From a virus, in the IMG/VR virus record IMGVR_UViG_3300027631_000036, positions 1 through 47,452 of that record: a DNA stretch of 47,452 nt; one strand, 5' to 3'. Under the pieces are notes generated by a model that did no database searches, was not told where the DNA came from, and saw only the letters and a program-made list of their open reading frames with translations. This document shows positions 4,544 through 40,266 of the stretch, in pieces (position 1 is the stretch's first letter; the number at the start of each line of letters is the position of its first letter). A program made the position numbers and the translations under genes.

Positions 4544-6964
4544 TTAGCTTAATTCGCCTGTGTTAACAATGCGGATTGGAATATAGATGAATTCCGCTGA
4601 TTTTGTTGGTTCGATTGCGACGTCGATCCACAGTTCATTACGATCAACACGTGCTGGTGTATTGTTTGTTTCATCACATACAATAGCAAAGTCGTATAAG
4701 CCACGCTGTGCTAGGATATTGCCCATGAAGCCATCAAATGTACCTTTTGCATTTCTACGAGTGCTTTCGTCATTTGGTTCAAACAAATATGGACGACCAA
4801 TAACCGCAAACCGTTCACGTAGATAAGCTGTTAGGCGTGCTACGTTTACACGGTCCAGTGCGCTTGCGCCTGCTGCTAGTGTCTTCTGACCAAATACAAT
4901 GATGCCTTCTGCTGGGAAACGAGCAATTGGGTTTAGCTTGTTTTCATACATTACATCACGTGAACCTTGTGTTAGTGAAACTGCAACAAAGTCACCTTCT
5001 GCATTGATATAACCAACGTTTGATGCGTTTTGTACAACGCCACGAGTTAAACCAGCTGGTGCGAACCACTGATAGCTTACGTTATCACTGTATGCATATG
5101 TGTATAGCACCGCATGCGATGCTGGAGCAACAACACTGTCACCAGTTGCTGGGTTAGTTGTTAGAACACTTGGGTAATATGCGGCTGCATATGTGTTGCG
5201 TCCTACTAAACCATCTTCACCGTTCTCAATTGCATTTGTACCTTGAACCCAGGCTACTGCTTCTGTTGGATTAGCGCGGAATGGCGCATCAACAATAACA
5301 AATGCTGTTTCGTTACGATCAGAGTTCAGTGTCACCATTTCATCAAATAGCTCTGGATAACTAGGTGCAGCTAGAAGACGGAATTGTACAGTATCTTCAC
5401 GTAGTGTTGTACCACTTGCACTTGCTTGCATTGCAGCAACGATAATTTTACGCTGCGCATGTCTACCAAATGATCCGGCGCCAGTAGCATGGTTTCCTGC
5501 CAGGTTACGCCATTTCCAATCAGTCACTAGTGCTGAATTATAAACACGTACTGTATTTGCTGAACGACACATATTGACACCAGTTGTGCCAACTGGGAAG
5601 ATTAGCGGGCTTGGACCATCTGCTAATATGTCGCCATGGGCTACAAAGTTTCCAGCTGAAACATCGTCTGCTGAAATATCACCAAATACAACGCCATTGG
5701 AAGTTGTTTGGTCAGTGTTGTCTTTTTCAACCCATGCGGCGCCATTATAACGACTAATTGCTGGGAATTCAGCAGTAGTATCTACCCAGTAATCACCTTG
5801 CAATGGACTTGCTGGTGCTACTGAACCGTATGATACTTCGCTTACACGTGCCCACTTTTGTTCGCCAGCATCTGATACAACTTCAAAAATTGCAAGATCG
5901 TTAAGATCTGGATCAAACCAAATTGTACCGTCTGCTGCTGAGCCTGTTGGCTTGTTTACTGTTACGTCCATTGTGAAAGCACCAGTTGCTACAGATTCAT
6001 CAGTTGAAATATCATCCCATTCACTGTTTGTACTGTCCCAACGGACAATGTTGATTGCGCCGTCAAGGACTTGCACCCATATGTCAGCTTCAGTAATTGT
6101 TCTTGCCGCTGGCAATGAACCATCTTGGAACGTATCAGTTGCGTCACCAGCTGGGATATCTTCTTGGCAATATAGAATTTGCTGTGCAATGAAGTCACCA
6201 GCAAATGTAGTATAAAGTCGAAGATCTAGCTTTAAGCCTGCGCCTGGCTGAGTTGTTTTGATCCAAACATCGCCTGCTACTGGTCCAGATGGCTCATTAT
6301 AATGCGGAGCAAAAGTTACTGTGCCTGTTGACCATAATGAATCAAGAGCTACCAAGCTGCCAGATTCACCAATCCAATATGAAATTTCTGTTGATCCAGC
6401 GCCATTGTCAACTGCTACAAGAAACTCGCCATCTGCAACACTTATTACTGGTGCTCCGCCTGATGTAATTTCAATTGCAGTAGATTGTGCTTGCCATCCG
6501 CCTGCTGTATATTGGAAAACTCCAAAACCAGATGTTGACGGATTTAGCCAATATGTGTTGTTTGCTGCTGGGCCTACTGGCGCACTAGATAGTGGACGTA
6601 GTGCTGCGGTGTTAATGTTTGCGCGGACGACGTATGCTGCTGAACTTTGCCCTAGGAAAGAATATGCTGCTAGCAGACCGTAGTCGTTTGTTTCGTCGCC
6701 CTGCACTACTGATCCAGCAACTTTGCGGAAGTCGACGTTCCCAAAGTATTGTGTTAGTTCGCGCTGTGACGTAACAAGTACTGGTGTTCCGGCGCTTGCT
6801 TCTTTAGTATACTTGGCGATGCCGTCAGCTTCTGTGCCAGTTGGGTCTGCTTTATTTTCTCCAGTAGCAATGAATATCATTGGTACTGTACCTGTGCCTG
6901 CTGGACCGTAAACTGACTCATCAGTTACTGAAACCTGTACGCCAGGTGAAACTAGATTTGCCAT
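4544..6964 (-). CDS. 18: Tail sheath protein, T4 gp18, with inserted GDxW modules
   Basis: 806 aa against 659 aa in T4. It forms the contractile sheath. The N-terminus LVSPGVQVSVTDESVYG and the C-terminal third (RLTAYLRERFAVIGRPYLFEPND, ELWIDVAIEPTKSAEFIYIP) are typical gp18. Residues about 125-415 hold at least four short modules of the form P.G...G..YW.(D/N)....f...Y..W: NNTYWLNP near 135, AGDVWIKT near 230, DGTIWFDP near 345, and QGDYWVDT near 387. They lie where T4 gp18 has surface-exposed protrusion domains. The extra length is therefore probably surface decoration. AAGGAG precedes the ATG at 6964, and a TATAAATA promoter lies 58 bases upstream. Confidence 0.92.
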   Translation of the reverse strand: MANLVSPGVQVSVTDESVYGPAGTGTVPMIFIATGENKADPTGTEADGIAKYTKEASAGTPVLVTSQRELTQYFGNVDFRKVAGSVVQGDETNDYGLLAAYSFLGQSSAAYVVRANINTAALRPLSSAPVGPAANNTYWLNPSTSGFGVFQYTAGGWQAQSTAIEITSGGAPVISVADGEFLVAVDNGAGSTEISYWIGESGSLVALDSLWSTGTVTFAPHYNEPSGPVAGDVWIKTTQPGAGLKLDLRLYTTFAGDFIAQQILYCQEDIPAGDATDTFQDGSLPAARTITEADIWVQVLDGAINIVRWDSTNSEWDDISTDESVATGAFTMDVTVNKPTGSAADGTIWFDPDLNDLAIFEVVSDAGEQKWARVSEVSYGSVAPASPLQGDYWVDTTAEFPAISRYNGAAWVEKDNTDQTTSNGVVFGDISADDVSAGNFVAHGDILADGPSPLIFPVGTTGVNMCRSANTVRVYNSALVTDWKWRNLAGNHATGAGSFGRHAQRKIIVAAMQASASGTTLREDTVQFRLLAAPSYPELFDEMVTLNSDRNETAFVIVDAPFRANPTEAVAWVQGTNAIENGEDGLVGRNTYAAAYYPSVLTTNPATGDSVVAPASHAVLYTYAYSDNVSYQWFAPAGLTRGVVQNASNVGYINAEGDFVAVSLTQGSRDVMYENKLNPIARFPAEGIIVFGQKTLAAGASALDRVNVARLTAYLRERFAVIGRPYLFEPNDESTRRNAKGTFDGFMGNILAQRGLYDFAIVCDETNNTPARVDRNELWIDVAIEPTKSAEFIYIPIRIVNTGELS

Positions 6965-9246: not shown

Positions 9247-10317
9247 ATGCCACGACTTAGTCTCTACAAACCATACAAGGGCAATGATTACAAGTTCATG
9301 GATAGAAATATTCGCGAGCAATTTGATATAGGTGGAACGGCTGTTCATATCCATAAATATCTTGGCCCTAAGCAAACACTTAATAGTGGTGATCCTAGTG
9401 AACCAAACTACGGCAGCGGATTGGAAATCGACCCGACTCTTGGCATTGAAATTAATCCAGAAGGTTGGATCAACGAAACAAAGATACAGGACTTGCTGTT
9501 TATGGAAAATCGCGATCGCAAATATGATCCTGATATTTACGACTTGCGCGGGGTATACAATGTAAGTGATAATGATTTCGACTTGAGTCAATTTGGATTA
9601 TTTTTGACAAACGACACGTTGTTTATCACTTTTCATATTAACGATATGATTGAAAAACTAGGACGTAAGATTATGCCGGGTGATGTGTTTGAATTACCGC
9701 ACTTGCGTGATGACTTACTATTAAATCACGATCGTGATGCTGTCAACAAGTTTTATGTAGTACAAGACGCGAATCGTGGTAGTGAAGGATTTAGTCAGAC
9801 TTGGTACTCGCATATTTGGCGTGTTAAGGTTAGCCCACTTACAGACACACAAGAGTATGCTGATATTCTCGGTACTGCATCTGACCCTGACAGCTTAAAG
9901 AATAAAATTAGCAGTTACAAAACTGAGATTAACATTAGCAATGCGATTGTTGCAAGTGCTGAAGCGGCTGATCCAATTGGGTTGCCACTTGCTGAACATT
10001 TGTTTGGTGTAGCAGATAATACTACAACTGAATATGAACACGGCGAAACAATACTAAGTGGTGACCAGTTTCCACAAGAAACAAATGATGGCGATTATTT
10101 TATAAGAACAGACTTTACCCCTAATAGGATGTTTGTTTTTCGCGGAAGTCGTTGGCATAGACTATATGATAACGTAAGCGCCGCTACATGGAGTGATAGA
10201 ACATATAATGCCAGCAGCTTCATTAATAACAATAACACAACCATTGTAGATAATCAAGAGTTCCCAGAACGGCAACCACTAAGTCAAGTTATAACCCCAA
10301 AGACGGATTTTGAATAA
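9247..10317 (+). CDS. 14: Neck protein, T4 gp14-like, with C-terminal extension
   Basis: 356 aa against 256 aa in T4. Residues about 30-230 follow gp14: an early acidic segment with IQDLLFMENRDRKY, a strand-rich core FGLFLTNDTLFITFH, the LGRKIMPGDVFELPHLRDD turn near residue 137 (T4: EPKEGDLIYFPMDN), then FYVVQDANRG and the HIWRVKVSPL segment. In T4, gp14 joins gp13 at the head-tail interface. About residues 273-305 contain one GDYF....RMFVFRGSRWHRL module of the type inserted in gp18. The gene is on the plus strand, opposite to gp13, and its stop overlaps the gp15 start as TAATG. The call relies partly on the certain gp15 next door. Confidence 0.68.
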   Translation: MPRLSLYKPYKGNDYKFMDRNIREQFDIGGTAVHIHKYLGPKQTLNSGDPSEPNYGSGLEIDPTLGIEINPEGWINETKIQDLLFMENRDRKYDPDIYDLRGVYNVSDNDFDLSQFGLFLTNDTLFITFHINDMIEKLGRKIMPGDVFELPHLRDDLLLNHDRDAVNKFYVVQDANRGSEGFSQTWYSHIWRVKVSPLTDTQEYADILGTASDPDSLKNKISSYKTEINISNAIVASAEAADPIGLPLAEHLFGVADNTTTEYEHGETILSGDQFPQETNDGDYFIRTDFTPNRMFVFRGSRWHRLYDNVSAATWSDRTYNASSFINNNNTTIVDNQEFPERQPLSQVITPKTDFE

Positions 10318-11672
10318 TGGCAGATTACTTTTACGACAAACAGATAAGAAGATACATACAGCAGTTTATTCGCTTGTTTAGTGGATTTAATGTGCAAATG
10401 GGCGTAAGTGATGATAGATTTCCTATTTTTCAACAAGTACCAGTTCGCTATGGCGATATTAGCCGCATGGCGGCACACATTCAGCGAGAGAACAGCGAGA
10501 ACATTACTAATACTGTTCCGTTTGTAAGTTGTTACGTAACTAGCTTGGACATGAACCCAACTTATCGTATGGATCAAGATCATGTTGAAAAGGTACCAGT
10601 ATATGAGAAGAAGGTAGATCCAGCTACAGGAAAATATTTGGATGAAGTTGGTAAAACTTATACTGTTGAACGTTATATGCCAGTTCCATATAAATTAACA
10701 ATGAACTGTGACATTTGGACAAGTAATACTGATCAAAAATTACAATTGCTGGAACAAATTCTAGTGCTTTTCAATCCAACGCTGAATATTCAGACTACTA
10801 GTAATGGGCTTGACTGGTCTAGACTTGCGTATGTTGAAATGACAAATACTATCTGGAGTAGCCGCAGTGTTGGATCTAATATTGATGACATTGTCGATGT
10901 GGCTACGCTTACATTTGAAATGCCAATCTGGATCAATCCGCCAGCAAAAGTTAAACAGCAAAAGCTAATCCATACTGTACTCAATCAACTATATAATTTA
11001 GATGATGCTGATTTAGATGCATTTAGAAATCAAGAACCGTTCGATACTTCATCATTGCAATATACTGTTATTACTTTTGAAGATCGTAAACTTCGCTATA
11101 TTGATGGAAACGCATATTTACTAAACAGTGCAAGTGGAACAACTGATGTAGATGGCAATACACTTGAATGGAAAAATTCACTAGTACCATTTGGCGCTTT
11201 GCGCGAAGGCATTAGTCAGCTAAGATTAAGAAAATCAAACAATCCAGATGATATCGAAAATGATATTATTGGACGGTTAAGTTACCATCCAACTGATTTA
11301 AATGCTTTAGTTGTTGACATTGACATAGACACATTGCCTGCCAATTCATTGCCTCCAGTTACTGGAGTTATTAATCCTGCTAAAAATTTCCCGGGTGACG
11401 GTATAGTTCCAAATGCAGTCGCCGGACAAAGTTACTTATTGCAAGCGGATTTACCAACATCAGGCGCTTGGGGCGCGGCTACAGGGAAAGCTAACGATAT
11501 TATACAATTCAATGGCAGCGGATGGATTATAATTTTTGATGCAGCTAGCATATCTACCCAACATTTTGTTTATAATACTGCATCAGCTGATCAACTTGAA
11601 TGGAATGGTACTGACTGGTTCAACAGTTACGAAGGTATATATAAAGCAGGTTACTGGAGGATCTATCTATAA
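10317..11672 (+). CDS. 15: Tail terminator / sheath stabiliser, T4 gp15
   Basis: 451 aa against 272 aa in T4. The N-terminus YFYDKQIRRYIQQFIRLFSG matches T4 gp15 YFYNSSFRRYATLMGDLFSN, followed by VPVRYGD. The core includes VPYKLTMNCDIWTSNTDQKL near residue 122 and DDIVDVATLTFEMPIWINPP near 187, matching the T4 segment ending in WMYPP. gp15 caps the tube and sheath and docks to the neck. From about residue 359 there is a C-terminal extension with two GDxW-type units (NDIIQFNGSGWIIIFD and DQLEWNGTDWFNS). One-base stop/start overlaps link it to gp14 and to the next gene. Confidence 0.85.
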   Translation: MADYFYDKQIRRYIQQFIRLFSGFNVQMGVSDDRFPIFQQVPVRYGDISRMAAHIQRENSENITNTVPFVSCYVTSLDMNPTYRMDQDHVEKVPVYEKKVDPATGKYLDEVGKTYTVERYMPVPYKLTMNCDIWTSNTDQKLQLLEQILVLFNPTLNIQTTSNGLDWSRLAYVEMTNTIWSSRSVGSNIDDIVDVATLTFEMPIWINPPAKVKQQKLIHTVLNQLYNLDDADLDAFRNQEPFDTSSLQYTVITFEDRKLRYIDGNAYLLNSASGTTDVDGNTLEWKNSLVPFGALREGISQLRLRKSNNPDDIENDIIGRLSYHPTDLNALVVDIDIDTLPANSLPPVTGVINPAKNFPGDGIVPNAVAGQSYLLQADLPTSGAWGAATGKANDIIQFNGSGWIIIFDAASISTQHFVYNTASADQLEWNGTDWFNSYEGIYKAGYWRIYL

Positions 11673-12298
11673 TGGCAACTTGGTTAGACGAAGACGGCGC
11701 AGTAAATATAAGATATGACGGTCATATGTGCATACATGAAATGTTGTGGCGAGATGATGAAGCGTTTATCGACAGCCAGCTGTGGATCGATGAGGTAATG
11801 CCGACAGTCGAGGTAGTACACACTGTCGTTGATTATTTTAACTGCTTTATGATAAATGATCATATAATCGCAATGCAACAAGAATATCCAAAAATTAAAA
11901 AAATTATTGTTACAAAGACTTCAATAGATTACAGAAAACCAGAATACGCAGTGGGATTTGTTAGTGAAAATCTTAGATCTGGATTTATATTCGGCATGTC
12001 TGATATAATTATTAATTTTGATGAAATACATATTACTCCTGGTATTGAAATTATTATTGATGAAAGTTTATCTCATATTACTGCGAAAATAATTACAAAC
12101 CATCATTCTAGATTATTGTTGGCAGATATGTCTAAATTTTACTGGGCCAGGCAGGACTTGGGCGATTATATAGAATTTCCATATTCTCAAGGACATGTTT
12201 ATCATAAATGGTTTATGCCGTTAAATCGTTCCAATAGAGCTATCACATGGGACATATTTAAGAATATGATTTATGACAATTTAAATTTAGGTAATTGA
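11672..12298 (+). CDS. Unrecognised protein in the neck operon
   Basis: 208 aa, start ATG overlapping the gp15 TAA by one base. The sequence alternates beta-strand-like stretches (KIKKIIVTKTSID, IEIIIDESLSHITAKIITNH) with aromatic-rich segments (MSKFYWARQDLGDYIEFPYS). The N-terminus MATWLDEDGAVNIRYDG is acidic. No signal peptide, membrane segment or catalytic motif is visible. Being translationally coupled behind gp14 and gp15 suggests a virion or assembly role, but no family is recognised. It is followed after one base by the TTG start of the Nudix gene. Confidence 0.8.
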   Translation: MATWLDEDGAVNIRYDGHMCIHEMLWRDDEAFIDSQLWIDEVMPTVEVVHTVVDYFNCFMINDHIIAMQQEYPKIKKIIVTKTSIDYRKPEYAVGFVSENLRSGFIFGMSDIIINFDEIHITPGIEIIIDESLSHITAKIITNHHSRLLLADMSKFYWARQDLGDYIEFPYSQGHVYHKWFMPLNRSNRAITWDIFKNMIYDNLNLGN

Positions 12299-12299
12299 T

Positions 12300-12752
12300 T
12301 TGCAAGCTAGCGGGTGCATATTCTTAGCTGTCGACACTGGCAGAGTAATGTTACAACAACGTAGCAATCAATCTAGCCATCCCAGGACCTGGGGATTCTT
12401 TGGCGGGAAGGGTGAAAAGGCTGAACGTCCTATCCAGACACTTCTACGTGAACTGGAAGAAGAAATAGGTATGCTCCCTAACGTAGAAAAAGTTTATCCA
12501 CTTAATAAGTTTACTAGTCCTGATAGAAAATTCACATACAACACATTTGTTGTGACGATATATGAAGAATTTGTACCAGTACTTAACAATGAAAGCGATG
12601 GATTTTGTTGGGTAAAGATTGGCAACTGGCCGCGCCCGTTACACCCAGGCGTAAAGGCACAATTATTTAATAAAGATATCGTAAAGAAAATAAAAACCAT
12701 CCATAACAATTGCGCCGTGGATGGTTCTAATTGGCTTGATAGTTTTAATTAA
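12300..12752 (+). CDS. Nudix hydrolase
   Basis: 150 aa. A complete Nudix box GX5EX7REUXEEXGU is present near residues 39-60 (G..GEKAE...REL.EEIGM). It predicts Mg2+-dependent hydrolysis of a nucleoside diphosphate linked to another group; the substrate cannot be told. Upstream PRTWGFFGG is the usual strand before the box. The start is TTG at 12300, the only codon that keeps the first strand (SGCIFLAVDTGRVMLQQR); TTAGGT lies about eight bases upstream. It closes the plus-strand operon. Its stop overlaps the stop of the convergent minus-strand gene, and its last codons contain the terminator hairpin of that minus-strand operon. Confidence 0.9.
   Translation: MQASGCIFLAVDTGRVMLQQRSNQSSHPRTWGFFGGKGEKAERPIQTLLRELEEEIGMLPNVEKVYPLNKFTSPDRKFTYNTFVVTIYEEFVPVLNNESDGFCWVKIGNWPRPLHPGVKAQLFNKDIVKKIKTIHNNCAVDGSNWLDSFN
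12686..12726 (-). terminator. Minus-strand intrinsic terminator embedded in the Nudix gene
   Basis: On the minus strand AACCATCCA (12718-12726) pairs with TGGATGGTT (12695-12703), 9 bp with a 14-base loop, followed by TTTATTTTC. On the plus strand the hairpin has no T-run. It would end the tiny-gene operon about 25 bases past its last stop. Confidence 0.7.
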
Positions 12753-13457: not shown

Positions 13458-14558
13458 TTAATCATCTGTTCTGACTGTACGCTGTTTCATGCTTTCAACA
13501 AAGCGTTCGCGCAACCATTCAAAGTCGTTAATTTTGTTTAGTGCCGCGACATTGTCTTTATTGGCAATGCCATATTCGCGACCTTCAATAGCGCCCTTGA
13601 TGCAATAACGTCCAAATCGAGCGCCGTTGTCAACTGTACACCAAATTTCAAGTCGTTCTTCTGATTCACTATCCTTTTGATTTGGATTAATCTTGCTTGA
13701 TAGTTTAACACATTCACGAAAGGCGCTTCGCCATGTACGGAATGGGTCTTTGTTAAAGCCAGTTATGTTAGCAACATCGCGAACAGGTTGGTAAAATGCT
13801 GCGCCAGTACTAAAATCTGGTAGTTCATGACCCATCTCTAATAGTTGTTCACGTGGAAATAGTTTAATGCCGCCATATCCATATTCTAAGCCGTTTACTA
13901 GGTTACGTGCAAACCAACTGTACGTTGTATTCTTACGATTTGCCATTGGCGGGATGTAATCAAAGCAGAAATGGTCTAAGATATCAGCATCTGCGTCAAT
14001 AATCCAAACCATTTCAGTTTCAGAAACACGTGCTGCTTCGCGGTGTGCTTCCGCAATACCCTTAACGTTTTTAACGTGTTTAATATCAGGAAACCGTGTC
14101 TTCAGTCTTAGATAGTTTGCGTCTGCTTCACTTTCATGATAGCTCAACATAACAATGTCAAAGTCTGCTTCATGATATGTAGCAATAATTTTATTTTTAA
14201 CTGTGCCGTGTGCTACGCCACCTGTTGGTACAAGTCTTACGTCTCCCCAAAGCATTGGACGCTTACTTCTTCTTGTCACTCTTGGGAATTTGTGAATGAA
14301 ATTTTTACCGGTATCGCTAGGGCGATAATGCCATGGAAAATCATTTACTATTTTAATATTTTGATTAACAATCCAAACCATATCAGACTGGTTTTGAAAC
14401 GCACGGGCTACTTCCAATAATTCTTCATCTTTGGTAATATGCCTGTCCGTCTTATATATTGGATATGATTGAAAAATATATTTTTTTAGTCTATCCCAAG
14501 GAGTAATTACATTTTGACCCTTGTAGTCAAATATCGCCGATCTTTCTAAATCAATCAT
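13458..14558 (-). CDS. Glycosyltransferase-like protein (GT-A fold suspected)
   Basis: 366 aa. A DXD-like motif WIIDADADI near residue 185 follows a helix-rich HVKNVKGIAEAHREAARVSE segment and an FDIVMLSYHESEADANYLRL strand-helix. This resembles the nucleotide-sugar binding half of GT-A enzymes. YGGIKLFPREQLLEMG and FSTGAAFYQPV near 230-265 could form the acceptor side. There is no membrane anchor. Its start overlaps the stop of the preceding glycosyltransferase gene by four bases (ATGA), with GGAGG upstream, so the two are co-translated. Virion-protein or DNA glycosylation, or host surface modification, are possible; none is shown. Confidence 0.6.
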   Translation of the reverse strand: MIDLERSAIFDYKGQNVITPWDRLKKYIFQSYPIYKTDRHITKDEELLEVARAFQNQSDMVWIVNQNIKIVNDFPWHYRPSDTGKNFIHKFPRVTRRSKRPMLWGDVRLVPTGGVAHGTVKNKIIATYHEADFDIVMLSYHESEADANYLRLKTRFPDIKHVKNVKGIAEAHREAARVSETEMVWIIDADADILDHFCFDYIPPMANRKNTTYSWFARNLVNGLEYGYGGIKLFPREQLLEMGHELPDFSTGAAFYQPVRDVANITGFNKDPFRTWRSAFRECVKLSSKINPNQKDSESEERLEIWCTVDNGARFGRYCIKGAIEGREYGIANKDNVAALNKINDFEWLRERFVESMKQRTVRTDD

Positions 14559-15202
14559 TTACAATCATCCTCCAATGTGTATGCTCTTGTTCCTATATGA
14601 GCAATTTTATTACTTAAATCTGAATCGATCCAAATATCGTATCCTGCATTATCTGCCTTGTTAGCAAAAAATAAATCTTCACCAATCAAACTCGTATAGT
14701 CATGATTCCATTCAACACCAAAATAAGGAAGTTCCATGTCATTAAACACATTACGTTTTACTAACATGCATCCCATGCCAACAGCAGTTACTTTATTTAA
14801 TCCGGTTTGATCATAAAGTCTTTGACTCATATCTTGCTTACTAGTGAAGGCCACTGGAATATGTGGCGCTACTCGAGTGCTGTAATTACATGCAACGATA
14901 TCCTTTTCATGCAATAGTAGTGATTCTATGATAGTATTAGGAAATCTCATATCGCTGTCTAGCCAAAGAATATGCGTACATTCTGTAGATAATGCTTCGG
15001 TTGCTAGTTGCTGTCGTTGACTTGCTATTTCGCTTCCTATTACCATATGCAATGAGGTTTTGCGAGCAGTCTCGCCACACTTTTTTAGAAGCATCGCGAG
15101 ACTGAACGAAAACGCCGCGGTCACATTGTCACGCACAGGAACGCATATTGCAACACGAGCCGTTTTATCTGCACGATATAGATAATTTGGTATCGATACC
15201 AT
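14555..15202 (-). CDS. Family-2-like glycosyltransferase
   Basis: 215 aa. Compact GT-A pattern: VAICVPVRDNVTAAFSFSLA near residue 17, RQQLATEALSTECTHILWLD near 63 leading into the DXD motif LWLDSDMRFP, GMGCMLVKRNVF near 142, and IGEDLFFANKADNAGYDIWI near 173 with the GED signature of the active-site loop. This makes a nucleotide-sugar-dependent transfer likely. It is a minimal single-domain form, as is common in phages. Acceptor unknown; the downstream partner gene overlaps it. Ribosome site weak. Confidence 0.75.
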   Translation of the reverse strand: MVSIPNYLYRADKTARVAICVPVRDNVTAAFSFSLAMLLKKCGETARKTSLHMVIGSEIASQRQQLATEALSTECTHILWLDSDMRFPNTIIESLLLHEKDIVACNYSTRVAPHIPVAFTSKQDMSQRLYDQTGLNKVTAVGMGCMLVKRNVFNDMELPYFGVEWNHDYTSLIGEDLFFANKADNAGYDIWIDSDLSNKIAHIGTRAYTLEDDCK

Positions 15203-16018: not shown

Positions 16019-19000
16019 TTAGTTGTTAAGTCTAGCCTTAAGTTCAGCAATCTCTGCTTGCATACCCTTAATTGTTTCAGTTTGTTCTTTAATTGCTTCA
16101 ATCAACAAACCAACCATGTTGCCATACTTAACGGCCTTCATACCATCTTCATCAGTTGTTACTGCCTGTGGTAGAACTTTTTCCACATCTTGCGCAATAA
16201 CACCAGTTGAAGCAATGCCATCTTCTTTACGTGTATATGTAACACCACGTAGTTGGTCAACTTTATTTACTGCATTTGTGATTGTTTCAATGTTGTCTTT
16301 TAGTCGTTCGTCTGAATAAGCTGTAACATCACCGCCGGCATAAATTGCTCCGCCAACACCTAATCCGCCAGTAATCTTCACTGCGCCAGTAGTTGTTGAT
16401 GTTGATGCTGTGGCATTACTGAATGTAATAACACCGCTCGCGGTATCAGTTGCATCGCTGCGTAAGAAACTAGCACCTTGCACGCCGTCAAGTGTATCAG
16501 CGTCTAGGCCTGATCCAGCGCCATCGTTACCGCCATGCCAAACCACGTTACCGTCCAAATAACGGCCAATCTCAGAGTTGGTAATCGTGGCTGTGATTGT
16601 CCCAAGTGTCGTTGCAAAACCAACAGCCCAGTTGTCGTTCCATTGGTCCGCATCGTAATTGCTATAACCAGCAACAAAATGCGTTACTGCAACCTGTGGA
16701 TAAGACCAAGTGCTTGTTGTTTCACCGATGTAAACGCAGCAATATGTGCCATCATGCCCAAGACGCACAGTGAAGTTGCGGTTCACATTTGGCGATCCGA
16801 TGATATAAGCAAACGGACTATTGGCCCAAGATGCACTTGGCGAATAGTTATAGCCACCACAAACAACCTCAAACGCTTCATTTGTTGCATATTCGTAAAT
16901 ACGAATAGTCATTCGCATCATGGTATTGGACCATGATTGCGGCAAAGTGATTTTGATAGCGCCAGTTACCGTGGCAGTGTTGGTCGCATAGCTTGCGCCA
17001 TGAGGGTTGAAGATAGAAAGTGATCCTCCAGCAGTGTTCACAAACCCTTCTGCTTGTAAATATCCTGTGGTCGCAGTGTTCGCATCAGCCCGCAAGAAAG
17101 ATGCGCTGCTTAAGCCATCCAACAGGTCGGCGTCAAGGCCGGAACCTGCACCATCCACAGTCTTGATTGCAGTCAGGATTTCAGCCGCAGTCTGGTCACC
17201 AGTTGCCCCTGACTCGATACCATTTAGCTTGCTCTTGTCTGTTGAAGACATCAGACCATTTGCACTTGTAGTAGCTACGCCATATGTTGTATTTGTATCA
17301 GTACTACTGATTGTAAAGTTTGGATATGTACCACTTACTGATGTAGCCCCACTTCCTGTTAGTGTAACAGTTTGATCTGGTGCTGCGTTAATGAATTGTG
17401 TACCAGATAGTGTTAAGCCAGTTCCTGCGGTGTAAGTTGTGTTTGTATCACTCCATGGCACGTTAACTACTGCTTGTCCACTTGAGTTTACCTGTACACC
17501 GTATGTTCTACTTGCTGTAGCACTTACTGCGGTTGCTGCTACTGATTGAACAGTGTCACTGAACAACTCAATGCCGCCGCGTACTGTTGATGTCGCAGCA
17601 GGTAGCGTGTATACGGTATTTGTATCAGTACTACTGATTGTAAAGTTTGGATATGTACCACTTACTGATGTAGCACCACTTCCTGTCAATACGACTGTCT
17701 GATCTGGTGCTGTGTTAGCAAAAACTGTACCTGTTAGAGATAAACCAGTTCCTGCACTATAGGTTGTGTTTGTATCAGTACTACTAACTGTGATAGTATT
17801 TGCATCAGTACGTGTTACGGTTACGTTTGTACCACTGGCAATTTTAACATCGTCAGTTGACGAATCGCTTCCTGTTAGTCGTAAATTTGCGCCGCCAGCT
17901 ACAGTTTCACTACTAATACTGTATGTTGTATTAGTATCTGAAGGCATTGTCAATGTTTTAACATTAATAGCAGTAACGTGACCTAGGGCATTTGATGCTA
18001 TGCTATCAACGGCAGTAAATGTACCGCCATGTGTTAGTGTGCCTGCACTTGTTGTGTCTGTTCTCGTTGTGTTGCTATGTGTTACTGTTGGGCTCCAACC
18101 TTCACCAGCAGTACCAGTGACCGCAATGCCAGTACCAGCAGTTAATCCTGCTACATAGTTACCAGTTGTATCTGTACCTAGCGCAACACTATTTGCTGCA
18201 ATGGTTGCAGTAAGTGTTACGTTTGCACTGCCATCAATGCTTACGTTACCAGTTAGATCGCCACCTAGTGTAATAGTGCGAGTATTTGCCCATTTACTTG
18301 CTGTTGCAGCATTTCCTGTCAAACTACCAATAAAGTTAGCGGCTTGCATGTCTGCTAGGCTAAAACTTGCGTGGCTTGTATCAATATCAATTGAATCATC
18401 TGGTTCTGGAGTATAACCGTCAAATACTTTAAATATGCCATCAGAAGCATCACGGAATAGACCAGCGTGTGCATAACTTCCAGCAGTATAGCTGCCTGCC
18501 CAACCTAAGTCAACATTTGTATTTGTGTGCGCTCTTGCACTACCACCACTTACATATGTACCAGTAGCACTGCTACTGATTGTAAAGCTAGTTGCGTTGG
18601 CACTTGTAATAGTTGCATCAGTAACGTTGTAAGCACTTGGATTTACACCTGTTACATCAACTGTATATCCAGTGCTAAAGTTATTGTCAGCAGTGTATGT
18701 TACAGTTGTGCCATTACCAACAGCATTAGTAATAGTCGCTGTACCGCCATTGTTTAGATAGATCAAGTTATCAGTAATTGAAAGACTTGCAACATCAACT
18801 GTAGTAGTTGTACCCAATACTGTTAAATTGCCGCTAATAGTTGCATCGCCGGCGACTGCTAAATCACCGCCCAATGTTAATTTTTGTGTTGATGTATTAT
18901 ATTTTAAACCAGCATTTGAAAGACCAGACTGGGCGCCGCTTGCGTTGGCAACCATTGTTATAAAACGATCCGCTGCGCTAGTATTATCTGCTATACTTTG

Positions 19001-20182
19001 TAGTGTATCTGTGTTAGTATCAGTCGCTGCAATAGTAATTGTATTAGCATCTGTTCGAGTAATTGTTATATTAGAACCATTAGCAAATTTAACATCATCA
19101 GTCGTTGCATCGCTTCCGGTTAATCTTAAATTAACGCCGCCTGTTGCAGTTTCACTACCAATACTGTATGTTGTATTTGTGTCTGTATCTACTACTGTTT
19201 CAGTACCAGTGCTGTATCCTGTTACGTGTCCAAAAGTATCAAAAGTTAGACCTGTTACGTATGTTCTTGCACTAGCAGTTAAATCGCTAGCACTTGATGT
19301 ATCAGTATGACTAAATGTTGTTCCTGCTAGTGTTAATCCACTACCAGCGGTATAAGTTGTATTTGTGTCAGTACTACTAATTGTAAAGTTTGGATAAGTG
19401 CCACTTATTGATGTAGCGCCACTTCCTGTCAATACAACTGTCTGATCTGGTGCTGTGTTGGCAAACGTTGTACCTGTTAGAGATAAACCAGTTCCTGCAC
19501 TATAGGTGGTATCTGTAGTTGAATATCTACCATCTAGGTCAACTGTGACGATTGAAGAATCAGTCAGTGTCGCTGTCAATACACCATTTGAAGTATTGAA
19601 TCCAAGACTCTGTAAATACGTGTTAGTATCTGTGTAACTTGTTAAGTATCCTGCATCGTTTGTGAACGCACTTACGTTTGTAGGTATACGGGCATCTACA
19701 CGTGCGTCAGTATAGTAAAGATTTGTAGTACCTTCTGATAAATCGTCAGTGTCTTTGGCACTCAGGTCTAGATAAATTCCAGTCTGTAGAGCAATACGTG
19801 CATCTGCTCTGGCATCTGTATAATAAAGATTTGTTCCTTCAGCAACACCGTCTGTAGTAATGTTTACTGCCAACAGCACTTGGTCGTTAAGGTCATCATA
19901 AGTGGCATCAATATAGGTGTGGTTAGCGTGGACTAGTAGCGGAGAGATTAAGTCCTCAATACCTTCTGCGTCACTTGAAATTGTTACAGTGCCGCTTGAT
20001 TGTGTAATCGTAATACCTGAACCGGCAGTAAATGTTACAGTATCCCCTCTGTTAATTTGTTGAGAAGTTGTACCATCAGTAACGTTAAACACATTGTTTA
20101 GTACGTTTGTTTCATCGATAGTAGTATTCTGGATAACACTACTGTCTGTAATTACTTCGTTGTTTATAACCTTAAAAGCCAC
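16019..20182 (-). CDS. Large tail fibre/spike with Peptidase_S74 chaperone
   Basis: 1387 aa, GTG start at 20182 with GGAGA upstream. N-terminus MAFKVINNEV resembles MAF(K/R) starts of two other adhesins here. Residues about 30-950 are Thr/Ser/Gly/Asn-rich beta repeats, including three copies of a PDQTV.LTGSGATS unit and two of a NLRLTGSD unit. ANTRTITLGGDLTGNVSIDG is a common fibre motif. About 1090-1235 is a compact domain (IKITLPQSWSNTMMRMTIRI, STWSYPQVAVTHFVAGYSNY) of the sort found near fibre tips, a good receptor-binding candidate. The last ~110 residues are an intramolecular chaperone: YSDERLKDNI (self-cleavage before Ser), GVIAQDV, VKYGNMVGLLIEAIKEQ and a coiled coil. Confidence 0.88.
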   Translation of the reverse strand: MAFKVINNEVITDSSVIQNTTIDETNVLNNVFNVTDGTTSQQINRGDTVTFTAGSGITITQSSGTVTISSDAEGIEDLISPLLVHANHTYIDATYDDLNDQVLLAVNITTDGVAEGTNLYYTDARADARIALQTGIYLDLSAKDTDDLSEGTTNLYYTDARVDARIPTNVSAFTNDAGYLTSYTDTNTYLQSLGFNTSNGVLTATLTDSSIVTVDLDGRYSTTDTTYSAGTGLSLTGTTFANTAPDQTVVLTGSGATSISGTYPNFTISSTDTNTTYTAGSGLTLAGTTFSHTDTSSASDLTASARTYVTGLTFDTFGHVTGYSTGTETVVDTDTNTTYSIGSETATGGVNLRLTGSDATTDDVKFANGSNITITRTDANTITIAATDTNTDTLQSIADNTSAADRFITMVANASGAQSGLSNAGLKYNTSTQKLTLGGDLAVAGDATISGNLTVLGTTTTVDVASLSITDNLIYLNNGGTATITNAVGNGTTVTYTADNNFSTGYTVDVTGVNPSAYNVTDATITSANATSFTISSSATGTYVSGGSARAHTNTNVDLGWAGSYTAGSYAHAGLFRDASDGIFKVFDGYTPEPDDSIDIDTSHASFSLADMQAANFIGSLTGNAATASKWANTRTITLGGDLTGNVSIDGSANVTLTATIAANSVALGTDTTGNYVAGLTAGTGIAVTGTAGEGWSPTVTHSNTTRTDTTSAGTLTHGGTFTAVDSIASNALGHVTAINVKTLTMPSDTNTTYSISSETVAGGANLRLTGSDSSTDDVKIASGTNVTVTRTDANTITVSSTDTNTTYSAGTGLSLTGTVFANTAPDQTVVLTGSGATSVSGTYPNFTISSTDTNTVYTLPAATSTVRGGIELFSDTVQSVAATAVSATASRTYGVQVNSSGQAVVNVPWSDTNTTYTAGTGLTLSGTQFINAAPDQTVTLTGSGATSVSGTYPNFTISSTDTNTTYGVATTSANGLMSSTDKSKLNGIESGATGDQTAAEILTAIKTVDGAGSGLDADLLDGLSSASFLRADANTATTGYLQAEGFVNTAGGSLSIFNPHGASYATNTATVTGAIKITLPQSWSNTMMRMTIRIYEYATNEAFEVVCGGYNYSPSASWANSPFAYIIGSPNVNRNFTVRLGHDGTYCCVYIGETTSTWSYPQVAVTHFVAGYSNYDADQWNDNWAVGFATTLGTITATITNSEIGRYLDGNVVWHGGNDGAGSGLDADTLDGVQGASFLRSDATDTASGVITFSNATASTSTTTGAVKITGGLGVGGAIYAGGDVTAYSDERLKDNIETITNAVNKVDQLRGVTYTRKEDGIASTGVIAQDVEKVLPQAVTTDEDGMKAVKYGNMVGLLIEAIKEQTETIKGMQAEIAELKARLNN
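17291..17390. repeat. ~100-bp coding repeat, copy 1 of 3
   Basis: Encodes NTAAPDQTV.LTGSGATSVSG-type sequence inside the 1387-aa fibre. Nearly identical copies lie at 17618-17717 and 19361-19460. Confidence 0.85.
17618..17717. repeat. ~100-bp coding repeat, copy 2 of 3
   Basis: Differs from the copy at 17291-17390 at only about ten positions, clustered at the far end. Internal duplication or gene conversion in the fibre is likely. Confidence 0.85.
19361..19460. repeat. ~100-bp coding repeat, copy 3 of 3
   Basis: Same unit as the copies at 17291 and 17618, with a few more substitutions, 1.6 kb further on. Confidence 0.85.
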
Positions 20183-20222: not shown

Positions 20223-20795
20223 TCACCCAAAATTTGTTTTTTCCAGTGATTCTACACGGGCTGTTAATTCTTTAATAGATTCTATTAGTAACCCTACGAG
20301 GTTGCCATAAGCTACTGACTTCATTCCTTCTGGATCTGTATGAACTACTTCTGGAACGATGACTTCTACTTCCTGGGCAATAACACCAATATTTTGTTTG
20401 CCACCTTTTTCGTACTCAACACCACGCATTGCATTTACTTTTTCTAACGCATTGTCAATTGTGACTACATTATGTTTAAACCGTATATCTGAATATGTAA
20501 CAACGTCACTTTTTGCGATCAAGTTGTCTAACTCAAGTGTTGCATGTGCATTAATGTTTGCTTCTGTAATTGAATCAGATGTTATTGTTGCACCGAGAGC
20601 ATAGTTGTCAATAAGGAAAAATTTGCCGGTGGTTCCGTCTCTAACTAATCCTGCGTATGTATTTGGACCAATACGGCCCATTATACCAATATCAACGTTT
20701 GGACTAGTATTATCTTTTGCTAACACCATAACGGCGTCGCTGAAGTTAACAACTTCAGATTTAGTCATTTGTAAATCTAGTTTACGGAAGGCCAT
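20223..20795 (-). CDS. Short S74-chaperone fibre protein
   Basis: 190 aa. MAFRKLDLQMTKSEVVNFSD is followed by a brief head (IGIMGRIGPNTYAGLVRDGT) like a segment of the 1387-aa fibre. From about residue 97 the Peptidase_S74 domain fills the rest: YSDIRFKHNV (Ser cleavage site), YEKGGKQNIGVIAQEVEVIV, AYGNLVGLLIESIKEL. If the domain cleaves as in endosialidase chaperones, a mature product of under 100 residues remains, unusually small. It could be a short decoration protein or a remnant of a shortened fibre. AGGAG precedes the ATG; GATAAATAC lies upstream. Confidence 0.82.
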   Translation of the reverse strand: MAFRKLDLQMTKSEVVNFSDAVMVLAKDNTSPNVDIGIMGRIGPNTYAGLVRDGTTGKFFLIDNYALGATITSDSITEANINAHATLELDNLIAKSDVVTYSDIRFKHNVVTIDNALEKVNAMRGVEYEKGGKQNIGVIAQEVEVIVPEVVHTDPEGMKSVAYGNLVGLLIESIKELTARVESLEKTNFG

Positions 20796-20831: not shown

Positions 20832-20839
20832 TATTTATC
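20832..20839 (-). promoter_or_regulatory. Variant late promoter (GATAAATA) for the short S74 gene
   Basis: CGATAAATACAA on the minus strand, 36 bases before the ATG, overlapping the last codons of the ParB-like gene. Confidence 0.5.
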
Positions 20840-21287
20840 GGTTCTTAAAATTATCTGGTATTTTTATAAATGAAGCAAGTTGTTGGATACTTGTTAGTGA
20901 GTGTTCAGTTATCAGTGACAACATCAACTCCGCTAACTGTGCAGTATCAAATTTTTCAATACTCGGAACACTTTTAAAATCCATATTATCGCATTTGTAC
21001 ACTAGACAAGGTACACTATCCATACCGCTTATCCAGTTTGCTGTTGCGCTATGTTGCCCATCCCAGAGAATATTTTTATCACCTATACGTGCTACACTGC
21101 TGGATCGTAACAATGCTGGGTGATAGTTTTCTAATATTTCGTTTACATGAGCAATATCAAATGTTTTTACTTGATGTGGCGTTACCCACAGATTATCAAA
21201 TGGTATCCATTCCAATGATAGCTGTTCTATAGCCAGATTGATTTTTCTCTCAACATTTATTGTGTCTATGTGCTTGACAATGTCCAT
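20835..21287 (-). CDS. ParB/sulfiredoxin-fold-like protein
   Basis: 150 aa. Residues about 27-100 show the ParB N-terminal pattern: WIPFDNLWVTPHQVKTFDIA (strand and position-specifying turn), HVNEILENY helix, then ILWDGQHSATANWISGMDSV with the DGxHR-like box (Gln and Ser replace the usual His-Arg order), and VPCLVYKCDNMDF. The fold occurs in plasmid partition proteins, in phage-encoded nucleases, and in sulfiredoxin. The C-terminal third is helical (AQLAELMLSLITEHSLTSIQ). It lies alone among fibre genes between a terminator and a promoter, like an inserted cargo gene. No Shine-Dalgarno site is seen, and the late promoter ends five bases before the ATG. Confidence 0.65.
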   Translation of the reverse strand: MDIVKHIDTINVERKINLAIEQLSLEWIPFDNLWVTPHQVKTFDIAHVNEILENYHPALLRSSSVARIGDKNILWDGQHSATANWISGMDSVPCLVYKCDNMDFKSVPSIEKFDTAQLAELMLSLITEHSLTSIQQLASFIKIPDNFKNR

Positions 21288-21292
21288 ACATT

Positions 21293-21300
21293 TATTTATA
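21293..21300 (-). promoter_or_regulatory. Late promoter (TATAAATA) touching the ParB-like start codon
   Basis: ATTATAAATAAATG on the minus strand. Only five bases separate the octamer from the ATG at 21287, so the transcript would begin at or next to the start codon. Confidence 0.65.
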
Positions 21301-21303
21301 ATA

Positions 21304-21364: not shown

Positions 21365-22864
21365 TTATTTGTTTTTTAGTTCTTCGATTTCTGCCTTTAG
21401 TTCTTTAATGGCTTCTACTAGTAAACCAACTAAGTTACCATATTTAACTGACAGCATTCCATCTTCATCAGTTAAAACTGCTTCAGGTAGGGCTGCGTGA
21501 ACATCTTGCGCAATTAGACCTGTTGATGCTAGTCCGTCTTCTTTACGTGTGAATGTTACACCGCGTAGTGCAGATACCTTTTCAACTGCGTTGCCAATAG
21601 TTACAATGTTGTCTTTTAGACGTTCATCTGAGTAAGCAGTTACATCGCCAGTTGCTGTTATCGAACCAGTAACGGATAACCCTGTAGCAGAAAATACACC
21701 CCTCGCGGCGCCGCCAGTAGTAATGCCAAGTTGGTCAGCCGCTGGTCTGTAGATGCCTGTGTTGAGATCAGCAGTCCAAGTGAAAGAAGGTGCTGTTGCA
21801 GTGTCAGCGTCAATGCCTTGGAAGCCGCCACCAGCAGTTGAGGTAGCGTTGAATGTGGCAGCGTTTACAGTGCTAGTTGATGTACTAGCCACATCTGAAC
21901 GCAGGAACGAACTACTATCAATGCCATCCAGCAAGTTACTGTCAGCAGCCTTGCCAGTTGTAGTCAAGTAAGAACCAGCAGGTTGGTAAGAACCAGCTAA
22001 CTGGTAACGACCGTCTAGGTCAACAGTTACATCCGCCAAACCTGTACGTGTAGCACTCAATAAACCATCAGCAATGTTGAATGAAAAGCCAGTTAGGTAG
22101 TTGTTTGAGTTAGCATCGCTAGTTGTTATTGCGAAAGTAGTGTTATCACCACGTGTGAATGTGATGGTATCGTTACTTACTGTAGCACCTTTTAAGTACT
22201 CAGCAGCACCAATTGAAACCTTAGTCGCAATACTAGATGCAACAGAAGTAGCAAAGTTTGGATCATCACCTAGAGCTGCCGCTAGTTCATTTAATGTATC
22301 TAGCGTTGTTGGTGCTGCTGAAACTAGGTTTGCAACTGCTGTGTCAACATAGCCTTTTGAGGCTGCGTCTGTTGCTGCTGAAACAGTATCGATACCTTGG
22401 ATGCGGCCAGTGCCACCAAGAACGATGTCACCACCGTTTACTGTCAAGTCACCAGCAAGTGTTAGTGCGTTATAATTTGATGTATTGGCTGGATTTGAAT
22501 AATACGCTGTATTATTTATATCGTAAAAAACAGAACCATAAACATTGCCTGAAATTGTTAGGTTACCGGTGATGGTACCGCCTGACAGTTGTAGAGTTTC
22601 AGTATCATTGTTTAATTTACCTGCAATGCCTGATTTGGAAGCTAGAATTGACATGTTGCGTTCTAGATCACCAAGTCGACGTAGTGATGACTTGCTACCA
22701 GAAATCACCATTTCGTCTGTTGCTAGTGGGTTTAGATCGGTAATTTCTTCAACACTACCAGTATCTTTATTCCATTTGTATTTTTTACTTTTATTAAATG
22801 TGAAGGTATCGGTTTTTGTTGTACTTGAGGTGCTATCGTAATAGCGAATTTGACGTTCTGACAT
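21365..22864 (-). CDS. Tail fibre with Peptidase_S74 chaperone, 499 aa
   Basis: Start at 22864 (MSERQIRYYDS) because AAAGGAGAG lies five bases upstream; an upstream in-frame start adds 19 residues with no ribosome site. Order: N-terminal charged region; ISGNLTISGNV beta repeats near 120; the KGYVDTAVANLV..LDTLNELAAAL module near 170 shared with the two helical fibres; VTVDLDGRYQLAGSYQPAGS; a tip segment near 330-380 (FQGIDADTATAPSFTWTADL); and an S74 chaperone from about 397 (YSDERLKDNI, GLIAQDV, VKYGNLVGLLVEAIKELKAE). It likely trimerises and self-cleaves before the Ser. Confidence 0.88.
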   Translation of the reverse strand: MSERQIRYYDSTSSTTKTDTFTFNKSKKYKWNKDTGSVEEITDLNPLATDEMVISGSKSSLRRLGDLERNMSILASKSGIAGKLNNDTETLQLSGGTITGNLTISGNVYGSVFYDINNTAYYSNPANTSNYNALTLAGDLTVNGGDIVLGGTGRIQGIDTVSAATDAASKGYVDTAVANLVSAAPTTLDTLNELAAALGDDPNFATSVASSIATKVSIGAAEYLKGATVSNDTITFTRGDNTTFAITTSDANSNNYLTGFSFNIADGLLSATRTGLADVTVDLDGRYQLAGSYQPAGSYLTTTGKAADSNLLDGIDSSSFLRSDVASTSTSTVNAATFNATSTAGGGFQGIDADTATAPSFTWTADLNTGIYRPAADQLGITTGGAARGVFSATGLSVTGSITATGDVTAYSDERLKDNIVTIGNAVEKVSALRGVTFTRKEDGLASTGLIAQDVHAALPEAVLTDEDGMLSVKYGNLVGLLVEAIKELKAEIEELKNK

Positions 22865-22952
22865 TTTAGCTCTCCTTTGTTTGAGCATAACTAGCGCGGA
22901 GCAATACCTCTGGTACGCCACTGTCTCTATTAACTTAGTTAATTTTGACTAA

Positions 22953-40062: not shown

Positions 40063-40266
40063 TTAACCGCCATCATTGGGGGTATACATATCGCGATATT
40101 GCTCGACTTCGCGATTATGTTCAGCGCGTTTCATTTCGCGACTATTTCTCATTTTATTAATATGTCGCAGTGTTAACCGCGGACGTCGGGTATCATCAAT
40201 TTCCCAACTTCCATATTTGTCATTTTCTGCTTTTCGTGTTCCGTTATCTACTTCTTTAAATCTCAT
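40063..40266 (-). CDS. Small head-operon protein, 67 aa
   Basis: MRFKEVDNGTRKAENDKYGS then WEIDDTRRPRLTLRHINKMR. The ATG at 40266 has AGGGGGAGC six bases upstream and overlaps the gp20 end by 11 bases; a longer frame inside gp20 lacks a site. Basic, with DTRRPRLTLRHINKMR as the most distinctive stretch. Similar short proteins with a DTR.PRLTL.H.NK motif occur, from memory, after the portal gene in T4-like marine phages. It could be a gp68-type prohead core protein by position, but no sequence proof is visible. Confidence 0.75.
   Translation of the reverse strand: MRFKEVDNGTRKAENDKYGSWEIDDTRRPRLTLRHINKMRNSREMKRAEHNREVEQYRDMYTPNDGG

Follow-up and report, generated by a model that had tools for sequence, protein, structure and literature searches.

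T4-type late promoters fused to start codons: predicted leaderless late genes in part of the T4 superfamily

How is a late phage gene translated when its promoter ends only five bases before the start codon and no Shine-Dalgarno (SD) sequence is present? The question is raised by a gene for a protein of 150 amino acids, referred to here as the cargo gene, which lies on the minus strand (20835..21287, stop codon at 20835-20837) of a viral DNA of 47,452 nucleotides from a marine giant phage; this DNA was analysed over its whole length and is called the window below. T4 late expression is a textbook system that is normally described with leaders and ribosome sites. We propose that, in part of the T4 superfamily, gp55-type late promoters are fused to start codons and give rise to leaderless late mRNAs, that of the cargo gene among them, and we assign this reading a probability of about 0.85. 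The start at +1, the late timing, and the leaderless translation are inferred, and no RNA 5' ends have been mapped.

According to this proposal, the cargo gene would be transcribed late in infection by the host RNA polymerase with a gp55-type sigma factor bound to it, and the position of the octamer would make the A of the AUG the first base of the RNA. The resulting leaderless mRNA would be translated through recognition of its 5'-AUG, not through SD pairing, and the cargo protein, with its predicted ParB/sulfiredoxin fold, would be expressed as a late single-gene unit. The fusion of promoter and start codon would recur in marine jumbo T4-like phages, in phage HTVC008M, and in a few genes of phage PA5oct, and in those relatives it would also drive core virion genes, such as gp25.

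A T4-type late promoter octamer at the start of the cargo gene

The octamer TATAAATA reads from 21300 to 21293 on the minus strand (21293..21300), and the ATG begins at 21287 (21285..21287), with the five-nucleotide spacer AATGT (21288..21292) between them. The duplex energy of SD and anti-SD at this start is +1.6 kcal/mol, the weakest among the 32 minus-strand starts examined, some of which are GTG or TTG codons from the ORF lister and possibly wrong; the gene downstream of the cargo gene has a good SD (-9.1). The initial annotation, which had described an octamer five bases before the ATG without an SD, a terminator directly upstream, and a position between two S74 fibre genes, is thus borne out on all of these points. 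The terminator is a 9-bp hairpin at 21331-21310 (minus strand), with a T-run to ~21304, and stands 3' of the upstream fibre gene, and Peptidase_S74 domains were matched on both sides, in 20223-20795 downstream and in 21365-22921 upstream, both on the minus strand, the upstream gene lying 77 bp from the cargo gene.

The predicted position of +1 follows from the numbering published for T4. In the available parts of a T4 review, the first octamer base is numbered -13 ("A(-13) in place of T"; PMC2988020), and in those of a cryo-EM paper on gp55, contacts are placed at A-12, A-9, and A-8 (PMC7892883). With this numbering, TATAAATA fits -13 to -6, so that the five-base spacer would correspond to -5 to -1, and the A of the AUG to +1. 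For the cargo gene this remains a prediction, in the absence of a mapped RNA 5' end.

If transcription starts there, an out-of-frame ATG at 21289..21291 (minus strand), which opens an ORF of 13 codons, would be missing from the leaderless mRNA, because it lies 5' of the predicted +1. The terminator 5' of the octamer should shield the cargo gene from read-through. The next late promoter, GATAAATA (20832..20839, minus strand), overlaps the cargo stop codon and lies 36 nt from the ATG of the next gene. With a terminator upstream, and with a following gene that has its own octamer and a strong SD, the cargo gene looks like a one-gene late unit.

The octamer as such is not what sets this locus apart. 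There are eight copies of TATAAATA in the window, against 4.0 expected, and at least eight were obtained in 5 of 100 shuffles; all eight are on the minus (coding) strand. At 11 other window starts with NATAAATA within 120 nt, the octamer is 15-91 nt upstream, and the cargo gene is the window's sole example of the 5-nt layout. As judged from the sequence, the non-random feature is the exact distance from octamer to ATG, TATAAATA alone being only mildly enriched.

Homologues of the cargo gene

A direct search of viral contigs gave only one match, a 99% copy. Further homologues were reached via the neighbouring genes and then by alignment searches (L008/L009, L096/L097/L108, L110/L111, and L117), which makes ten sequences in five lineages; the window and L001 are the same virus, and L008 and L009 are near copies. 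The homologous proteins have 148-155 amino acids. In named phages, no relative of the cargo protein (P0001) was found at E 0.01, and at E up to 10 there were nine records, the best with E 2. Among genome_contigs, 113 stretches fit a peptide pattern and none of them encodes a relative.

The initial annotation had suggested that homologues be checked for position, and the check came out in its favour: NATAAATA-N5-ATG is exact in all ten sequences, across all five lineages, and the start codon is ATG throughout. The length of the spacer is fixed while its sequence varies (AATGT, CCACT, GAACT/AAACT, ACTAT, and CAGGT), and the SD energies at the ten starts are 0.2 to 1.6, that is, without a Shine-Dalgarno sequence. 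Between lineages, synonymous sites are nearly saturated (pS 0.65-0.81) and pN is 0.24-0.41, which indicates purifying selection, and in the first 22 alignment columns there are only 2-9 identities. The spacing has therefore outlasted the sequence that flanks it.

The poor conservation of about 22 residues at the N-terminus could also mean that the start is misannotated, and that a true start with a ribosome site lies downstream, which would give the octamer an ordinary leader. The initial annotation had named such a start as a finding that would refute it. We found no in-frame ATG or GTG in codons 2-60 of six homologues; the only candidates are TTGs at non-matching places, whose SD energies are no better than -3.1. 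In HTVC008M, the depositors' annotation also agrees with the octamer-based start at 9 of 9 five-nt sites. A downstream start is consequently the least credible of the alternatives, and the ATG at 21285..21287 is the sole plausible start. It should be mentioned that in both L110 and L111 a further in-frame ATG precedes the start by six codons, within the promoter region (L110 2209-2229; L111 3812-3832), which gene callers could pick although it lies 5' of the predicted RNA start.

The surroundings of the homologues bear on another explanation, in which the cargo protein is made from an mRNA that starts ahead of the S74 fibre gene, the octamer being where it is by chance. The upstream gene is co-oriented and only 77 bp away, as this would require. 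However, hairpins are found 5' of the octamer in 6 of 6 homologous sequences folded, each with its own stem sequence; on a read-through transcript the out-of-frame AUG at 21291 would compete with a cargo start that has no SD; and an incidental octamer would not be expected to keep its spacing in five lineages. We regard read-through as very unlikely, and prefer initiation at the cargo gene's own octamer. Downstream of the homologues, the same S74 gene follows in L008 and, as judged by eye, a similar one in L117, while the gene that follows in L110/L111 resembles the start of the window's fibre gene at 16019-20182 (again by eye).

On the plus strand, a TTGACA-17-TATAAT sequence with 12/12 matches to the sigma70 consensus (window 21274-21302) lies across the start of the cargo gene; it is directed towards the terminator and runs antisense to the fibre gene. 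The score is 12/12 in the window and L001 and 11/12 in L008/L009, but the promoter is not conserved in the remaining lineages, with 7-9/12 in L096, L097, L108, L110, L111, and L117. We take it mostly as a coincidence of coding sequence and octamer, and an early antisense promoter is not excluded.

Five-nucleotide spacing in related phages

The spacing was counted by pairing each NATAAATA with the first ATG that opens a frame, and the expectation was taken from 20 permutations of the 7-mer. In two related contigs of ~190 kb each (G001 and G002; frames of at least 30 codons), 14 of 120 octamers are at exactly 5 nt, against 0.52 expected; none are at 0-3 nt, two at 4 nt, none at 6 nt, and one at 7 nt. 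Among 194 pooled loci (frames of at least 60 codons), 35 of 642 sites are at 5 nt, where 2.3 would be expected; the corresponding figures are 4 against 3.0 at 6 nt and 16 against 6.0 at 3-4 nt, and the ordinary leadered peak at 18-28 nt comprises 92 sites against 24.3. When only frames of at least 100 codons are counted, 12 are at 5 nt against 1.9 expected; the count is lower because the post-portal genes described below are short. The pooled relatives share ancestry and their counts are not independent; outside the named phages the starts are mostly our own ORF calls, from contigs whose hosts are unknown. Before the gp23 loci were added, 99 loci gave 7 sites at 5 nt among 424, with 5 at 1 nt, 6 at 2 nt, and 6 at 7 nt, so that the 5-nt count was not above some of its neighbours, and the peak depends on the sample of phages. 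In ten relative contigs, there are 28 matches to ATAAATA-N5-ATG and 5 to the pattern when reversed.

Among named phages, HTVC008M, a cultured Pelagibacter phage, has 9 of 45 sites at 5 nt (0.1 expected), and all nine ATGs are annotated CDS starts, at 6280, 7562, 16007 (minus strand), 18916 (minus strand), 19456, 31132, 49760, 75559, and 142360. These genes are annotated as 2OG-Fe(II) oxygenase, CsgF, tape measure, DNA end protector, tail tube cap, baseplate wedge subunit, baseplate wedge initiator, a hypothetical protein after gp23, and a transcriptional regulator. Pseudomonas phage PA5oct has 5 sites at exactly 5 nt (0.5 expected) and a pattern count of 8 against 4 in the control; of two sites compared with the annotation, one coincides with an annotated start and the other falls 5 codons into an annotated gene. 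At PA5oct 180252-180267 (minus strand), an in-frame ATG falls in the octamer region, and gp213 is annotated upstream of the predicted RNA start. Mosig and Melnitz, each represented by one ~50-kb stretch, have one site each, both at annotated starts.

In T4 itself, where late promoters depend on gp55, gp33, and gp45, the coding-strand octamer TATAAATA/NATAAATA is the same and gp55 has homologues in the relatives studied here, but the first ATG follows the octamer at 18-30 nt at 21 sites (4.0 expected), and no octamer has its first ATG at 5 nt (frames of at least 30 codons). Two T4 matches to ATAAATAN5ATG were discarded as they are not CDS starts, one (113284) being inside uvsW and the other (131167) between genes 31 and rIII. 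The P-SSM2 phage likewise differs from the fused design in being mainly leadered, with 29 sites at 18-30 nt and 2 at 5 nt (0.3 expected). Pattern counts showed no excess in KVP40, Syn9, 121Q, phiM12, Phosso, or Vibrio 2.275.O; in these and in GAP32 they were 0-2, at or near the control (GAP32, 2 against 0). With no excess in several phages and none in T4, the design is not general to the T4 superfamily.

The 5-nt layout was observed at gp25-type baseplate wedge genes of G001, G003, G004, and HTVC008M (~30% identity for HTVC008M), and further at genes for a head-tail adaptor, a tail tube, a terminase large subunit, and virion structural proteins; in a scan of ten proteins encoded by 5-nt genes, PHROG gave nothing for one and, for another, only a match to a family without known function. 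Going by these gene calls, the layout is a class that includes core structural genes in relatives. The initial annotation had presented a leaderless late phage gene as an oddity, and a ParB-fold protein in an adhesin block as another; the layout that it noticed is real, and it is not a single case. PA5oct CDS 144985 (TATAAATA-CGTGT-ATG) is annotated "structural protein, ESI-MS/MS", and this note by the depositor is the only sign here that a 5-nt gene makes protein. The gp55 late sigma family (phrog_234) was detected in 5 of 10 relatives, including G003, which has the cargo gene; it was not found in the other five, which are fragments, nor in the 47-kb window, itself a fragment.

The bases at the start carry a signature of their own. 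The base before the ATG is a pyrimidine at 22 of 23 five-nt sites of HTVC008M, G001, and G002, against 30 of 63 leadered sites (Fisher p 3e-5), and at 27 of 28 ATAAATA-N5-ATG sites in the ten relative contigs. In the same three genomes, the codons at exactly 5 nt are 23 ATG, 1 TTG, and no GTG with frames of at least 30 codons, and 22 ATG with neither TTG nor GTG with frames of at least 60. The pyrimidine and the near-exclusive use of ATG both fit an RNA polymerase that starts at the A and ribosomes that need a 5' AUG. They also bear on the possibility that the mRNA begins with a few bases ahead of the AUG, and that this short A/U-rich leader supports SD-less translation with the help of bS1. 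The unmapped 5' ends leave room for this, as does the one-base slack of the post-portal genes, 10 of 32 of which have a spacing of 4. Against it, the peak at 5 is sharp, with nothing at 0-3 and 6 nt in G001 and G002 and likewise in HTVC008M, and both the pyrimidine at -1 and the near-exclusive ATG point to +1 at the A. A short leader is therefore unlikely, though less so than read-through or a wrong start, and a start at the A itself remains our reading.

The relation between octamer and SD is most visible in phrog_13986, the family of a small gene of unknown function directly after the portal gene, in which both start types exist. Two partial loci out of 47 were excluded, leaving 45. In 32, the octamer is 4 nt (10) or 5 nt (22) before the ATG and the median SD energy is 0.3 (range -5.8 to 1.6); in the 13 without an octamer at 4-5 nt, the median is -7.4 (p 8e-7). 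Starts were chosen by a neutral rule, as those nearest to the start expected from homology; a rule preferring the octamer or the best SD, which leans to the contrast, gave the same numbers. The loci are related, so the p value overstates their independence. Among the 13, a near-octamer is present at 5 nt in L191, and L129 combines an octamer at 18 nt with an SD. The window's own copy (40066-40266, minus strand) is of the SD kind (-9.4) without an octamer. In this family, then, the octamer at 4-5 nt and the SD replace each other, as far as can be told from predicted starts, and the ten 4-nt cases imply that the distance may shift by one base and is not always exactly 5. Some members of the class at large do have an SD-like sequence, the strongest energies being -7.3 and -5.4 among the 32 genes listed.

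Taken on its own, the claim of the initial annotation that the cargo gene is expressed late and leaderless has strong comparative support from conservation, class counts, and SD data, without mapped RNA ends.

Leaderless messages and the cargo protein

The mRNA of lambda cI is an example of a leaderless message. The proposed late class is like lambda cI and the mycobacterial leaderless mRNAs (PMC4633059) in its 5'-terminal AUG start without an SD, and differs from them in its phage-coded late sigma factor, in its lytic virion genes, and in its fixed distance from promoter to ATG. A paper on phage AR9 notes as an aside that the transcripts of phages "are often leaderless" (PMC5312081). The same promoter motif is known from marine T4-like and jumbo phages, as NATAAATA late promoters of the cyanophages S-PM2 and Syn9 (PMC2984593) and as the ATAAATA motif of CBB/GAP32 (PMC5259590); the consulted parts of these two articles do not mention a leaderless class. 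In the open-licence literature, as far as it was available, no description of leaderless genes under T4-type late promoters was found; subscription papers are mostly outside this search, and absence is unproven.

If the proposal is true, lytic virion genes of T4-like viruses gain a second, unrecognised mode of starting late protein synthesis, and the late start site becomes predictable from sequence. Start annotation would be corrected where an in-frame ATG lies in the promoter region, as in L110/L111 and PA5oct gp213, and HTVC008M and PA5oct would be ready systems for studying how ribosomes choose leaderless mRNAs in the course of infection, and whether phage bS21 plays any part.

Ribosomal_S21 (bS21) is encoded in 5 of 21 records. 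Three of these (G001:C1:159538-159696, HTVC008M 91237-91392, and PA5oct 170985-171143) belong to phages with 5-nt late genes; Phosso and Vibrio 2.275.O, however, also encode bS21 and show 0 pattern matches, and G002 has 8 five-nt genes with no bS21 found in 186 kb. The protein thus does not track the class cleanly, and we claim no correlation. In the parts available, HTVC008M bS21 is reported to enter ribosomes (PMC6375957), and phage bS21 expression is linked to late replication (PMC9723584). I speculate, tentatively and with more doubt than belief, that late translation in part of the T4 superfamily follows two programmes side by side, one leadered with SD and one strictly leaderless, set by promoter position alone, and that ribosomes altered by the phage, for example through phage bS21, may favour the leaderless set late. 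The phage would then redirect the ribosome to other messages just as it redirects the polymerase to other promoters.

The initial annotation had called the cargo protein ParB-like. Pfam, PHROGs, and NCBIfam reported no profile match for it at E up to 10; among its homologues, one had a sub-cut-off match to DUF6551 (E 0.013) and another to RepB_C (E 0.002). A single-sequence AlphaFold model was discarded (pLDDT 32.6), and a model with an eight-sequence alignment reached pLDDT 74.8 and pTM 0.65. The top rows of Foldseek for this model are ParB, Noc, PadC, and Srx (best E 1.3e-5), VIA gave its maximum Z of 9.1 to Srx, and both rank ParB, Noc, PadC, sulfiredoxin, SbnI, and free serine kinase first. 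SRP9 and unrelated chains, returned by a sequence search of solved structures with a best E of 0.078, were taken as chance. A ParB/sulfiredoxin fold, like that of these proteins, is thus supported for the cargo protein by structure prediction.

The name cannot be extended to activity. The CTP motif of ParB is GERR/GxHR with an arginine, and the catalytic cysteine of sulfiredoxin lies in GCHR. The cargo protein has a conserved motif W[DE]GQH[ST]AT, of which [DE]GQH[ST] is present in 8 of 8 aligned sequences; we take this stretch to be the counterpart of GERR/GCHR, a placement that is assumed and not structure-aligned. On that assumption, the cargo protein differs from ParB and Srx: the GERR arginine is not present in the stretch in the eight aligned sequences, and in the place of the sulfiredoxin cysteine the alignment has an invariant Gln78. 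The predicted fold behind the name ParB-like therefore stands, and the motif residues of a ParB CTPase or a sulfiredoxin are missing. The cargo protein should not be called a ParB CTPase, a nuclease, or a sulfiredoxin, and its activity is unknown.

Two other features of the window may be recorded. Near the fibre block, 14555-15202 (minus strand) encodes an Anp1/glycosyltransferase-like protein, with matches to PF03452 (E 5e-9) and to the glycosyltransferase family phrog_12406 (E 5e-8), its top PHROG being phrog_1574, of unknown function. At 9247-12752, a short block of plus-strand ORFs (356, 451, 208, and 150 aa) stands within an otherwise minus-strand region.
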